A stretch of 64,000 nt of DNA from Candidatus Kuenenia stuttgartensis (GTDB taxonomy: Bacteria; Planctomycetota; Planctomycetia; Pirellulales; UBA1268), in assembly GCA_945891385.1 (NCBI GenBank), contig CAMDDJ010000001.1:92921-156920 (forward strand). Reading direction: 5' to 3'. Below, one piece after another: positions 24,295 to 29,267 of the stretch. The position numbers and the translations under genes were made by a program. Numbering within the stretch: the first letter of the stretch is position 1; every line of letters begins with the position of its first letter. The notes beneath the pieces are model-generated. The model worked only from the letters and a program-made list of their open reading frames with translations, was not told the origin of the DNA and ran no database searches.

Positions 24295-25635
24295 ATGACG
24301 TCTGGTTCCTCGAGTTCGTCGCCCGCGCCGCCTCCCCGGGGAGCGCTCCTGGTCGTCTTCCTCACGGTCTTCATCGACCTGCTGGGTTTCGGCATCGTCC
24401 TCCCCGTCCTGCCGCGGCAGGTCGAGCCCTATCTCAACGCCCTCGGCATGCCTCCGCTCGAGGGTGGTGCCGGCGGCGCCGTGATCGGCGTGCTGTTCGC
24501 CGTCTTCTCGCTGATGCAATTCATCTTCAGTCCGATCTGGGGACGGCTCTCGGATCGGATTGGACGGCGGCCGATCCTGCTCGTCAGCCTGACGGGTTCG
24601 GTGATCTTCTACGCCCTCTACGGCTACGCGGTGAGCGGGCCCGTGGAGCCAGCCCCGACCCGAAGTGCCGCCGTCACGGCCCTGACGCTGATCCTCCTGG
24701 CCCGCATTGGGGCCGGCATCGCCGGAGCGAGCGTGGGCACGGCGGCTGCTGTGATCGCCGATTGCACCACTCCCGAGAATCGGGCCCGCGGGATGGCCTT
24801 GATCGGGATCGCCTTTGGCGGCGGATTCACCCTCGGCCCGCTGATCGCCTACTTCGGCCTGGCGATCTTCGACGAAGCCCGCTGGGGTGTGGGCGGGATC
24901 GCCTCGCTGATGTCGTTCATCGCGCTGTTGATCGCCATCTTCGTGTTTCGCGAGACCCGGCGCCCCGGGGCGGGGGCCACCAAGGAGTTTCCCAGCGTGA
25001 CGCGGAGCCTGGCGGTGCTGCGGATGCCCAGCGTCGGAGGGCTCGTGCTCGTCTACTTTCTCTCGATCTTCGCCATGGCGAGTTTCGAGTCGACCTTGGC
25101 CCTCCTCACGAAGGCGGCGTTCGGCATGGGCGACGACGCCAACTTCCTCGTCTTCGCCGCCATTGGCTTCACGCTCATGCTGGCCGGCGGCGGCTATCGT
25201 CCGCTGGCCAAGCGGCTCCCTGAGCGGCGGCTGCTGGCCGCCGGCGTCGTGCTGCTTCTCGTCGGAATGGTGGCCGTCGGCGGCGTGGCGTGGGCCGTGA
25301 TGGGACGCGGCATCGTCGCCGAGGCGGGCAGTCCGTGGCGGGTTGCCTTTTACGTCGCCGCCACGCTCGTCGTCTGCGGCTTCGCATTCGTGAATCCCTC
25401 GGTGTCGGCGCTCATTTCCCGCCGCGCCGACCCCGATCGGCAGGGGGAGGTGCTTGGGGTGAACCAGTCGTTCGCGTCGCTGGCGCGGATCCTGGGGCCG
25501 ATGGCGGGGCTCAGCCTGTTCTCTCTCCATTCCTCGCATGCGTTGCCCTATCTGGCCGCGGTTATCGTGCTCGCCGCGGTGGCGGCGCTCCTGCCGGGGA
25601 TCACTCGCGAGTCGGTGGATTCCGCTGCCGCGTGA
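24295..25635 (+). CDS. MFS transporter, TetA/DHA1-like efflux type
   Basis: 446 residues with about twelve helices. The first helix FIDLLGFGIVLPVLP is the DHA1/TetA-type opening. SPIWGRLSDRIGRRPILL is the MFS loop 2-3 motif (GxxxDRxGRR). LARIGAGIAGASVGTAAAVIAD followed by RARGMALIGIAFGGGFTLGP is the antiporter motif C region. These features point to proton-coupled drug or metabolite efflux at the inner membrane; the substrate is unknown. The 3' end overlaps the convergent FHA-GAF-Fis regulator gene by 35 bp. Confidence 0.88.
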   Translation: MTSGSSSSSPAPPPRGALLVVFLTVFIDLLGFGIVLPVLPRQVEPYLNALGMPPLEGGAGGAVIGVLFAVFSLMQFIFSPIWGRLSDRIGRRPILLVSLTGSVIFYALYGYAVSGPVEPAPTRSAAVTALTLILLARIGAGIAGASVGTAAAVIADCTTPENRARGMALIGIAFGGGFTLGPLIAYFGLAIFDEARWGVGGIASLMSFIALLIAIFVFRETRRPGAGATKEFPSVTRSLAVLRMPSVGGLVLVYFLSIFAMASFESTLALLTKAAFGMGDDANFLVFAAIGFTLMLAGGGYRPLAKRLPERRLLAAGVVLLLVGMVAVGGVAWAVMGRGIVAEAGSPWRVAFYVAATLVVCGFAFVNPSVSALISRRADPDRQGEVLGVNQSFASLARILGPMAGLSLFSLHSSHALPYLAAVIVLAAVAALLPGITRESVDSAAA

Positions 25636-26776
25636 TGTCCCAGGCCTCGAGTCGACGGTAGAGCGTGGCGCGGCTGACGCCGAGGAGGGTTGCAGCCGCA
25701 GGGATGTGTCCGCCGGTGCGGCGAAGAGCCTCGAGCGTCAGCGCCTGCTCCCACTCGTCGACCCGCAGCGACACGGCATCGCTTGGGAGCGCGACCGGCG
25801 CGGCGTGCCAGCCGAGCAGAGACTCCGGCCCAAGTGCGATGGTGCCGTCGTCGGGGAGCCGGGCGTCGGCAGGCATGCCAGCGGTCGGTGGGGCGAGCGG
25901 ATCGGCCGCGGCCGCGGGGGGATGTGGCTCCGGTTCGCGGCCCGACTGGGCCGCTGCGGCGAACGTCGCCAGGGCGAGCAGACGGTCGAAGTCGGAATCC
26001 CGCAGGCCTCCGGCGGCGGCTACCGCGAGCACGGCCAGGGGACGGGGACCCGCCAGGAGCGGAACGCAGGCGACGCCCGTGCCATCGGGCTTGGTGAGCC
26101 ACACCGCTCGGCCGGCGGCGAGCTCCCGCTCACCCTGTCCGGCGACGAGGGCTGAGAGTCCGCTGCCGGGCGGGATGACGCAGACCGGTTCGAGGTCGCC
26201 TGCGTCCCCGAAGCGGAACCAGCCGAAGCTGGACGCCGTGGTGAACTCAGCCGCCAGTTCCAAGGTTGCCGTCACGATCTCGTGCGGATCCCGGGCGGCC
26301 AACAGGCGAATCCCTGCCTGGTAGAGGACCATCGACCACCGGCCTTCTCCCGCTGCGACGGCCCGGTGAATGGCCGCACCTTCGAGTTCGCCTGGCGAAC
26401 CGCTGCGGACGATCTCCGATTCCCCTGCCGGAGCAGTCGCCCCCGCCAGGCGAAACACGAGTTCGGTCGTGCCGACGCGGATCAGGCTGCCCTCCCGAAG
26501 CATGGCCTCGGTGACCGGCAGGCCGTCGAGCCAGGTTCCGTTGCGACTGCCGAGATCCTCGAGGAGCCAGCCGGGCTGTGCCGGTTCGAAGCGGATCGCC
26601 AGATGGCTGCGGCTGGCAAGCCGGTCGGCGAGCGCCACGAGCGAATCCTCGCCTCGGCCGATGATGTTTCGGCGGGCAGGATCGAGCAGAAACGCCGGCC
26701 CCTCCAGGCCTGCGATCCGCAACACGACCACGGCGGCCGCCGCCGCGACCGACTCAACGGGAAACGGCGTTGCCAA
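25601..26776 (-). CDS. FHA-GAF-Fis regulator without an AAA+ domain
   Basis: 391 residues in three parts. An FHA domain (about residues 30-110) has NIIGRGEDS and the SRSHLAIRF...LGSRNGTWLDG core that binds phosphothreonine. A GAF-like sensory region occupies about 140-270 (VLYQAGIRLLAARDPHEIV to VACVPLLAGPRPLAVLAVA). A C-terminal Fis-type helix-turn-helix closes the chain (ALTLEALRRTGGHIPAAATLLGVSRATLYRRL). Sigma54 activators such as NtrC-like proteins pair FHA or GAF with an AAA+ domain and Fis; here the AAA+ domain is absent. It probably links Ser/Thr kinase signalling to DNA binding without sigma54 activation. Confidence 0.85.
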   Translation of the reverse strand: MATPFPVESVAAAAAVVVLRIAGLEGPAFLLDPARRNIIGRGEDSLVALADRLASRSHLAIRFEPAQPGWLLEDLGSRNGTWLDGLPVTEAMLREGSLIRVGTTELVFRLAGATAPAGESEIVRSGSPGELEGAAIHRAVAAGEGRWSMVLYQAGIRLLAARDPHEIVTATLELAAEFTTASSFGWFRFGDAGDLEPVCVIPPGSGLSALVAGQGERELAAGRAVWLTKPDGTGVACVPLLAGPRPLAVLAVAAAGGLRDSDFDRLLALATFAAAAQSGREPEPHPPAAAADPLAPPTAGMPADARLPDDGTIALGPESLLGWHAAPVALPSDAVSLRVDEWEQALTLEALRRTGGHIPAAATLLGVSRATLYRRLEAWDITRQRNPPTRE

Positions 26777-27098
26777 GGGAAGCGACCGGTGAGCAAGTGT
26801 GGGGGCCGATGACCTTCTTTATAAAGGGTCGGAGTCCCGAGTGAAGAGGCCGCCCATGAGCCACTGCGGCTACAGCCGCATCGATGCGGTCGATCCATCC
26901 AGGCCTGGCCTGCGTAGAATCATCGGACAGCCGCCCACGCGGCCGTCGAACGCGCTTGCGATGTGCGTCCGAAACGCCAAACGGCCCTGTTGGAGGGCTG
27001 AAAACGTCTCGTCAAACCGGCGATCAAACGTCACAATACCGTGTCGGCCCTCGGCTTCGAGAGGTCCGAGAGGCCCCCTGGTTCGGAGGAGTCAACGA
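26777..27098. other. 322-bp divergent intergenic region (FHA regulator / Prc)
   Basis: No gene is supported. It holds a small perfect hairpin, GCGGC-taca-GCCGC, near 26869-26882 and an AT-rich patch CTTCTTTATAAAGG near 26813-26826. GGAGGA at 27085-27090 is the ribosome-binding site for the Prc gene. I see no clear -35/-10 pair. Confidence 0.5.
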
Positions 27099-29267
27099 GT
27101 GAACGGCATGCATGAGGCGATGGCGGGGGGTTCGTCGGCTGCGGCCCGCAGGTGGTGGCGTACCCGCCGCCCGACGCTCTGGTCGCTGGCAGCGGTGGCA
27201 CTCGCCGGTTGTACGACGGCAGCCTGCACGGCCGAGGAGCCACCACGCGCCGCGCCGCCGGCGATCGCGAGCGACTCGGGAGTGGCCCAGCCCGGTCCCA
27301 ACGACCGGCATATCGCCGTGGCTGTCCGACGGCACCTCGAGCGGGAGCACTTCCTCCGCCAGCCGATTGACGACGCCATGGCACACCGCTGGTTCGACGC
27401 CTTCCTCGAATCGCTCGACCCGTGGAAGCTCTATTTCCTCCAGTCCGACATCGACGGCTTTCTGGCCAAGCGTGATTCGCTCGACGACCTGGTGAAGCGG
27501 GGCGATGTGACCTTCGCCTACGAAGTGCTCGCCAGGTTTCTCCAGCGAGTGGATCAGCGGCTCCCGCTGGTCGAGAAGCTGATCGACGCACCGCTCGACT
27601 TCACCAAGGATGAGTCGATGGTCGTCGATCGTGAGGCCACGCGGTGGGCCCAGAGCGAGGCCGAGGCTGAAGACACCTGGCGGAAGCGGATCAAGTACGA
27701 CCTGCTCGTGCAAAAGATGGAAGAGATTCCGCCCGAGGAGGCCAAGGACAAGCTCCATCGCCGTTACCGAAGCTTCGCCAAGCGCATGCATCAGATGACC
27801 GCCGACGAACTGCTCGAAACCTACCTCTCGTCGTTGACGAGCAGTTTCGACCCTCATACCAGTTTCATGTCGCCTGGCACGCTGGAGAACTTCGAGATCC
27901 AGATGCGACTGCAGCTCGACGGCATCGGCGCCCAGCTCAAGAGCGAAGATGGCTACACCACGATCGTGGACCTCACTCCGGGCGGAGCCGCCGAGCGGGA
28001 CGGCCGACTGAAGTCGAAGGATCGGGTCGTAGGCGTGGGGCAGGGCAACGTAGGTGAGATCGTCGACACGGTGGACATGAACCTCAACGAGGTGGTGAAG
28101 ATGATCCGCGGCAAGCGGGGCACCGTGGTCCGCCTCAAGGTGATCCCGGTAGGCGAGACCGCTCCCAAGATCTACGACATCACCCGGGACAAGATCGAAC
28201 TCAAGGACTCCGAGGCCCGCGGCGAGATCATCGAGCATGGCTTGAAGGCCGACGGCACGCCCTATCGAATCGGGGTGATCAATCTGCCGAGCTTCTACAT
28301 GGACATGGCTGGGGCCCAGCAGGGCCAGTCCGAATACAAGAGCACGACGCGAGACTGCCGGAGGCTGCTCGACGATTTTCGGCAGCAGAAAGTGGACTGC
28401 GTGGCGCTCGACCTGCGGAACAACGGCGGCGGCTCGCTGCCTGAGGCCATCAAGCTGACCGGCCTGTTCATCGATCGCGGGCCGGTGGTTCAGATCAAGG
28501 ATGCTGACCAGCAGGTGCGGCCCTACGACGACGTCGATCCCGGCGTCGCCTGGGACGGCCCGCTTGTCGTGCTGACCAACAAGTTCAGCGCCAGCGCCAG
28601 CGAGATTCTCGCCGGTGCGATCCAGGATTACCGCCGCGGTCTGATCGTGGGCGACGATGCCACCCACGGCAAGGGCACGGTTCAGAGTCTGCTCGATCTG
28701 GGGCGGCAACTCTTCCAACGCTTCGATAACGCTCCGTCGCTCGGCGCGATCAAGATCACGATGCAGCAGTTCTACCGGCCCAGCGGCGCAAGCACGCAGC
28801 TCGAGGGTGTGAAGAGCGACGTGGTGCTCCCGAGCATCACGAGCCACCTGCCGGTCGGGGAATCTGACCTCGATCATGCGATTCCGTTCGATCGGGTGCA
28901 GCCGGCGCGATTCCAGCCCGAGGGTCGGGTGAACGACCGGGTGGTCGACCAGCTCCGCAGGCTTTCGGCCGAACGGGTCGCGGCTGATGAGAAGTTTGGT
29001 GAGAAGGCCCAAGACATCGCCCGGTACGAGAAACGGAAGAACGAAAAGACGATCTCGCTCGTTGAAGACGAGTTTTCGAAGCAGTGGAATGAGGGGAAGG
29101 CAGCCGAGGAAGAGGAGGAGAAGCGGCTGGAGGAGTCTGAATTCTCACAGCGGCCCGTGGTCAAGCGGGACTACTACTTCGACGAGGCGATGAACGTCAC
29201 GATCGACTACCTCCGCGCCCTGTCCGGTGCCGGCGGCCTCGCGGAAGCGGCCCAGGCCACTCCGTGA
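27099..29267 (+). CDS. prc: Prc-type carboxy-terminal processing protease (S41), probable lipoprotein
   Basis: Start GTG 27099 has GGAGGA eight bases upstream; 722 residues, close to E. coli Prc. A basic N-terminus (RRWWRTRR) and hydrophobic run end in VALAGC, a lipobox with Cys38, so the protease is probably lipid-anchored. The N-terminal Prc domain follows (WKLYFLQSDIDGFL). A PDZ domain reads TIVDLTPGGAAERDGRLKSKDRVVGVGQ. The S41 core has the catalytic serine in KFSASASEILAGAIQDYR and the lysine in THGKGTVQSL. The C-terminal FDEAMNVTIDYL matches the Prc tail domain. Role: trimming or degrading periplasmic proteins recognised by their C-termini. Confidence 0.93.
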   Translation: MNGMHEAMAGGSSAAARRWWRTRRPTLWSLAAVALAGCTTAACTAEEPPRAAPPAIASDSGVAQPGPNDRHIAVAVRRHLEREHFLRQPIDDAMAHRWFDAFLESLDPWKLYFLQSDIDGFLAKRDSLDDLVKRGDVTFAYEVLARFLQRVDQRLPLVEKLIDAPLDFTKDESMVVDREATRWAQSEAEAEDTWRKRIKYDLLVQKMEEIPPEEAKDKLHRRYRSFAKRMHQMTADELLETYLSSLTSSFDPHTSFMSPGTLENFEIQMRLQLDGIGAQLKSEDGYTTIVDLTPGGAAERDGRLKSKDRVVGVGQGNVGEIVDTVDMNLNEVVKMIRGKRGTVVRLKVIPVGETAPKIYDITRDKIELKDSEARGEIIEHGLKADGTPYRIGVINLPSFYMDMAGAQQGQSEYKSTTRDCRRLLDDFRQQKVDCVALDLRNNGGGSLPEAIKLTGLFIDRGPVVQIKDADQQVRPYDDVDPGVAWDGPLVVLTNKFSASASEILAGAIQDYRRGLIVGDDATHGKGTVQSLLDLGRQLFQRFDNAPSLGAIKITMQQFYRPSGASTQLEGVKSDVVLPSITSHLPVGESDLDHAIPFDRVQPARFQPEGRVNDRVVDQLRRLSAERVAADEKFGEKAQDIARYEKRKNEKTISLVEDEFSKQWNEGKAAEEEEEKRLEESEFSQRPVVKRDYYFDEAMNVTIDYLRALSGAGGLAEAAQATP

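Follow-up and report, generated by a model that had tools for sequence, protein, structure and literature searches.

A conserved planctomycete FHA-GAF-Fis regulator without the AAA+ domain of sigma54 activators

Among the sigma54 enhancer-binding proteins (bEBPs), those of the FHA/GAF-AAA+-Fis type have an orthologous N-terminal FHA-GAF part and a C-terminal HTH_8 domain in common with a regulator of Candidatus Kuenenia stuttgartensis, encoded in the window analysed here (the whole stretch of 64,000 nucleotides, positions 92,921 to 156,920 of contig CAMDDJ010000001.1), although the module which defines bEBPs, the AAA+ ATPase with its Walker A/B motifs and GAFTGA loop, is wholly absent from the latter. 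Activators in which GAFTGA alone was lost act at sigma70 promoters, as is the case for Rhodobacter and Caulobacter NtrC, TyrR, DhaR and HupR (PMC10274813, PMC3162934), and every architecture in the list of PMC3162934 retains the central domain. Like the window regulator, these proteins (R. capsulatus and Caulobacter NtrC, TyrR, DhaR, HupR) are former sigma54 activators which do not contact sigma54 and carry a Fis-type HTH, but they have kept AAA+ and lost only the loop, whereas the window regulator lacks the domain entirely. RegA/PrrA/ActR are two-domain regulators composed of a receiver and a Fis HTH: they resemble the window regulator in joining a sensor domain to a Fis-type HTH without AAA+, but differ in having a receiver instead of FHA-GAF as input and in their separate origin. 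In EmbR of Mycobacterium tuberculosis an FHA domain is found in a DNA-binding regulator controlled by a Ser/Thr kinase, the DNA-binding part being a SARP-type winged helix and the FHA C-terminal, with no Fis HTH and no GAF. The likeness lies in the FHA domain, whose phosphothreonine (pThr)-binding residues are intact in the window regulator; unlike the EmbR/SARP family, the latter has no OmpR-like winged helix and BTAD. No FHA-GAF-Fis protein without AAA+ was found described in the literature searched, the coverage of which is incomplete.

The regulator is encoded on the minus strand (25601..26776) as a protein of 391 residues with a TTG start, no other start codon lying between the FHA domain and the stop that precedes it. 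The initial annotation had described it as joining an FHA domain, a GAF-like sensor and a Fis HTH without AAA+, and Pfam, AlphaFold2 and the homologues agree on this architecture. The domain search which it proposed matches FHA and places HTH_8 above its cut-off and GAF_2 slightly below, with GAF models above in the orthologues. The FHA domain (residues 15-110; 26447..26734, minus strand) is matched by Pfam over residues 38-102 (2.2e-13), and its pThr-binding positions (GR, SRxH and NGT) are all present and invariant across the family of the window; its closest PDB structures are the FHA domains of FhaA and GarA, and EmbR (2ff4, 2fez) is among the matches through its FHA. The GAF-like domain (residues 145-278; 25943..26344, minus strand) matches GAF_2 over residues 161-276 (4.7e-6) with 27.3 bits against a curated cut-off of 28.6; its assignment is backed by a confident alpha/beta fold and by the orthologues, in which GAF models pass the cut-off. 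A disordered linker (residues 288-337, pLDDT <50; 25766..25915, minus strand) occupies in the alignment the position of the AAA+ domain of the orthologues, and is followed by the Fis-type HTH (residues 339-378; 25643..25762, minus strand), matched by HTH_8 over residues 341-379 (1.2e-10), the only DNA-binding model over its cut-off. In agreement, the AlphaFold2 model comprises confident FHA, GAF-like and three-helix HTH units separated by the disordered linker, and leaves no space for an AAA+ domain. In the window regulator no match was obtained to AAA+/sigma54-activator models (PF00158), to SARP or BTAD models or to a receiver (PF00072; FHA and GAF are present instead), the GAFTGA loop is absent, and the NCBIfam sigma54-regulator matches span the HTH alone; no AAA+ was found in the flanking ORFs scanned. 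The protein hence has Fis homology and no AAA+ domain, the two points on which the initial reading had been made to depend. Chance or misassembly is excluded, because about 30 genomes from separate projects hold homologues in the same gene order.

A distinct architecture is found in other families of the same order, where the orthologous single-copy regulator has about 600-640 residues and the arrangement FHA-GAF-AAA+(sigma54)-Fis. In these long orthologues Walker A (GESGxGKE) and GAFTGA (or GAFTSA) are intact, as reading and alignment show, and Pfam reports Sigma54_activat at about 1e-65 together with AAA_lid_14; the C-terminal HTH motif is nearly identical in the alignment of forms with and without AAA+. 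As a side observation, in four AAA+-bearing orthologues (L071, L114, L121 and L127) GAFTGA is replaced by GAFTSA or GSFTSA. In a set of 60 relatives, full-length homologues of the short form occur in several genomes from the window's genus and family, and a wider draw from the order gave matches in 153 of 247 genomes. The gene is present in 30 of the 72 genomes of the window's family, many of which therefore do not carry it, and AAA+ is missing in all 28 copies readable to the end, the other two being cut and left out of the judgement. Among the copies listed outside this family the open frames have at least 556 residues, with the exception of that in genome G058 and of three copies cut by contig ends; the short copies in G049, G253 and G139, considered as further AAA+ losses, were rejected since contig ends cut them. 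AAA+ is also lacking in 20 copies from named MAG records, whose titles are mostly Pirellulales, Planctomycetaceae or Planctomycetota, while outside the order the matches are weak and mostly partial. Orthology, as judged from sequence, tree and synteny, demonstrates that the window regulator shares descent with bEBPs. It descends by deletion of AAA+ from a sigma54 enhancer-binding protein, the ancestral form being FHA-GAF-AAA+-Fis: in the window's family AAA+ was removed in frame, and a flexible linker joins FHA-GAF to the same Fis HTH.

In a tree built on FHA-GAF, the copies of the window's family form one clade on a long branch with a support of 1.0. The copy of G058 (L070, G058:C139:63493-64593), from another family, is a complete ORF for FHA-GAF-Fis without AAA+, and groups with G045 and with G040, the other sampled member of its own family, in which AAA+ is intact; the support is 0.967 for the group and only 0.43 for the inner branch. 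The deletion in G058 is thus apparently a second, independent loss, in a clade other than the window's family. In G045 (L035/L077, G045:C157) the orthologue is a full-length FHA-GAF-AAA+-Fis protein with ruined GAFTGA and Walker B residues (GHAAADCSLPDCDH; LILKE): the Walker B acid is lost and a Walker A-like motif is still there, which makes it an intermediate in the decay of AAA+. The HTH has also been lost, in four genomes of group g6 (L065, L068, L097, L098) and in G028 (L067), where FHA-GAF alone remains and no trace of the HTH was found in other frames; a similar loss considered for G090 and G063 was rejected, these copies having frameshifts instead. The states observed among living relatives are AAA+ intact, AAA+ decayed, AAA+ deleted, HTH deleted and gene deleted.

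The short form without AAA+ is conserved and under purifying selection, and is not a relic. Pooled dN/dS values in the AAA+-less clade are lowest for the HTH (0.046), followed by FHA (0.087), GAF (0.119) and the second linker (0.234); as these are Nei-Gojobori estimates from eight partly overlapping pairs, their ranking is more reliable than the values. Pairwise dN/dS mostly lies between 0.05 and 0.25, reaching 0.47 in one very close pair and up to 0.37 in some more distant pairs. As constraint is strongest in the HTH, DNA binding is argued to be the retained output. The g6 copies, devoid of HTH, are still constrained (FHA 0.115, GAF 0.089), from which it follows that FHA-GAF also has a role independent of DNA binding.

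In respect to the neighbourhood, a conserved MFS transporter gene (24295..25635, plus strand; MFS_1 1.1e-48, synteny) is convergent with the regulator and overlaps its 3' end. On the other side lies the prc/tail-specific protease ORF (26799..29267, plus strand; TSP_NTD, Peptidase_S41, DUF3340), also a conserved neighbour by synteny, whose start was assigned mechanically and is probably near 27100. Across the family the genes follow one another as MFS - regulator - cbiX - prc, and the regulator is read from the other strand; divergent regulator/cbiX pairs recur in several further families, and in many families the AAA+-bearing orthologues are likewise arranged divergently with cbiX/prc. In most relatives the cbiX product between regulator and prc has two CbiX domains. 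This gene has been lost at the locus in the genome of the window, where a single-domain protein (C1:228367) is the one CbiX that remains; synteny comparison identifies the intergenic region 26777..27098 as the site of the loss, and neither a cbiX remnant nor a -24/-12 site was found in it. Since it was the loss of the intervening cbiX that made prc the nearest divergent neighbour, the link to prc proposed in the initial annotation is a by-product of gene loss. In addition, relatives without the regulator (L145-L157) keep cbiX and prc; ten of them also keep MFS, which is directly followed by cbiX, usually at a distance of no more than about 100 bp and possibly on one transcript, with no remnant of the regulator. 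A -24/-12 promoter scan upstream of the regulator loci gave scattered weak matches and no consistent sigma54 site, and a search for a shared inverted-repeat operator near the gene gave nothing convincingly above shuffled controls. With the adjacency secondary, the MFS-cbiX-prc order unchanged in regulator-less relatives and neither a sigma54 site nor a common operator motif found, control of prc or of the MFS efflux gene was rejected as unsupported. Two sequence elements are recorded at the locus: a palindrome, CTTTATAAAG, upstream of the regulator at about 26815-26825 of the window, and, in many relatives, a CTATAA-like element in a comparable position, perhaps a -10 element.

The genome of the window encodes 11 sigma54-activator domains, 7 FHA domains, a canonical FHA-GAF-AAA+-Fis paralogue with intact AAA+ and GAFTGA (C6:52195), and a receiver-HTH_8 protein without AAA+ that resembles RegA/PrrA (L243, G000:C17). 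Sigma54 is found in 57 of the 60 relatives, including this genome, and since it is retained, a loss of sigma54, considered as the cause of the AAA+ deletion, was rejected. The initial annotation had invoked an abundance of Ser/Thr kinases in planctomycetes; this genome has 18 such kinase domains, and a route from kinase to promoter through the regulator is plausible. Of 53 loci only one, other than that of the window, has a kinase motif near the regulator, kinases not being regular neighbours.

We consider it likely, on the basis of sequence comparisons, that the window regulator is a former sigma54 activator turned into a sigma54-independent DNA-binding regulator under FHA/GAF control. Probably dimeric, it would bind DNA by its Fis HTH and would either repress sigma70-type promoters or activate them by contact; the FHA domain may set its activity by reading a pThr, be it in the regulator or in a partner, and the GAF domain by binding a ligand or by dimerising. 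The best candidate for an ancestral target would be the divergent two-domain cbiX, gone in this genome. Purifying selection and the strong constraint on the HTH fit a regulator that binds DNA without activating sigma54, and against this reading count the lack of a conserved operator near the gene, the HTH-less copies of g6 and G028 and the many genomes of the family without the gene. The HTH-less copies, with no trace of the domain in other frames and with FHA and GAF still constrained in g6, would be accommodated if phospho-dependent protein docking by FHA-GAF were the conserved job and DNA binding an accessory output of a signal adaptor, one that some lineages have given up; this we regard as rather unlikely, since the HTH is the most constrained region wherever it is kept, as it is in the window regulator.

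The presence of sigma54 and of an intact paralogue (C6:52195) raises a different prospect, that the short protein acts as a negative modulator which occupies the sites of an intact sigma54 activator or pairs with it; this is improbable, as the HTH sequences differ (IERSTLERKL in the paralogue versus VSRATLYRRL) and no consistent -24/-12 site accompanies the gene. Finally, the graded losses across relatives, the frameshifted copies in G090 and G063, and the smaller genomes with fewer sigma54-activator domains of the window's family could reflect a plain erosion of AAA+, then HTH, then gene, with no function retained; given the mostly low pairwise dN/dS, the domain-specific constraint and the open reading frames in most gene-carrying members, we give this explanation the least credence. 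Returning to the sigma54-independent regulator, the loss of the motor very probably means that it controls genes in a simpler way. A broader proposal, which falls somewhat short of an even chance and is put forward tentatively, is that throughout one planctomycete family a sigma54 activator has become a Fis-type regulator of sigma70 promoters that lacks the motor and is gated by phosphothreonine, with the relatives displaying intermediates.

The regulator is a real, conserved and lineage-specific variant of sigma54 activators. The deletion of AAA+ from the ancestral activator is visible by comparison with relatives and invisible in the window alone, and the case of prc cautions that a neighbouring gene need not be a target. 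These relatives form a natural series that leads from an ATP-dependent sigma54 activator to proteins which have shed the motor and kept the sensor and DNA-binding parts, so that the change in sigma-factor dependence becomes testable. In planctomycetes Ser/Thr kinases are many and characterised outputs few, and the protein is a simple candidate for a link between such kinases and gene control.
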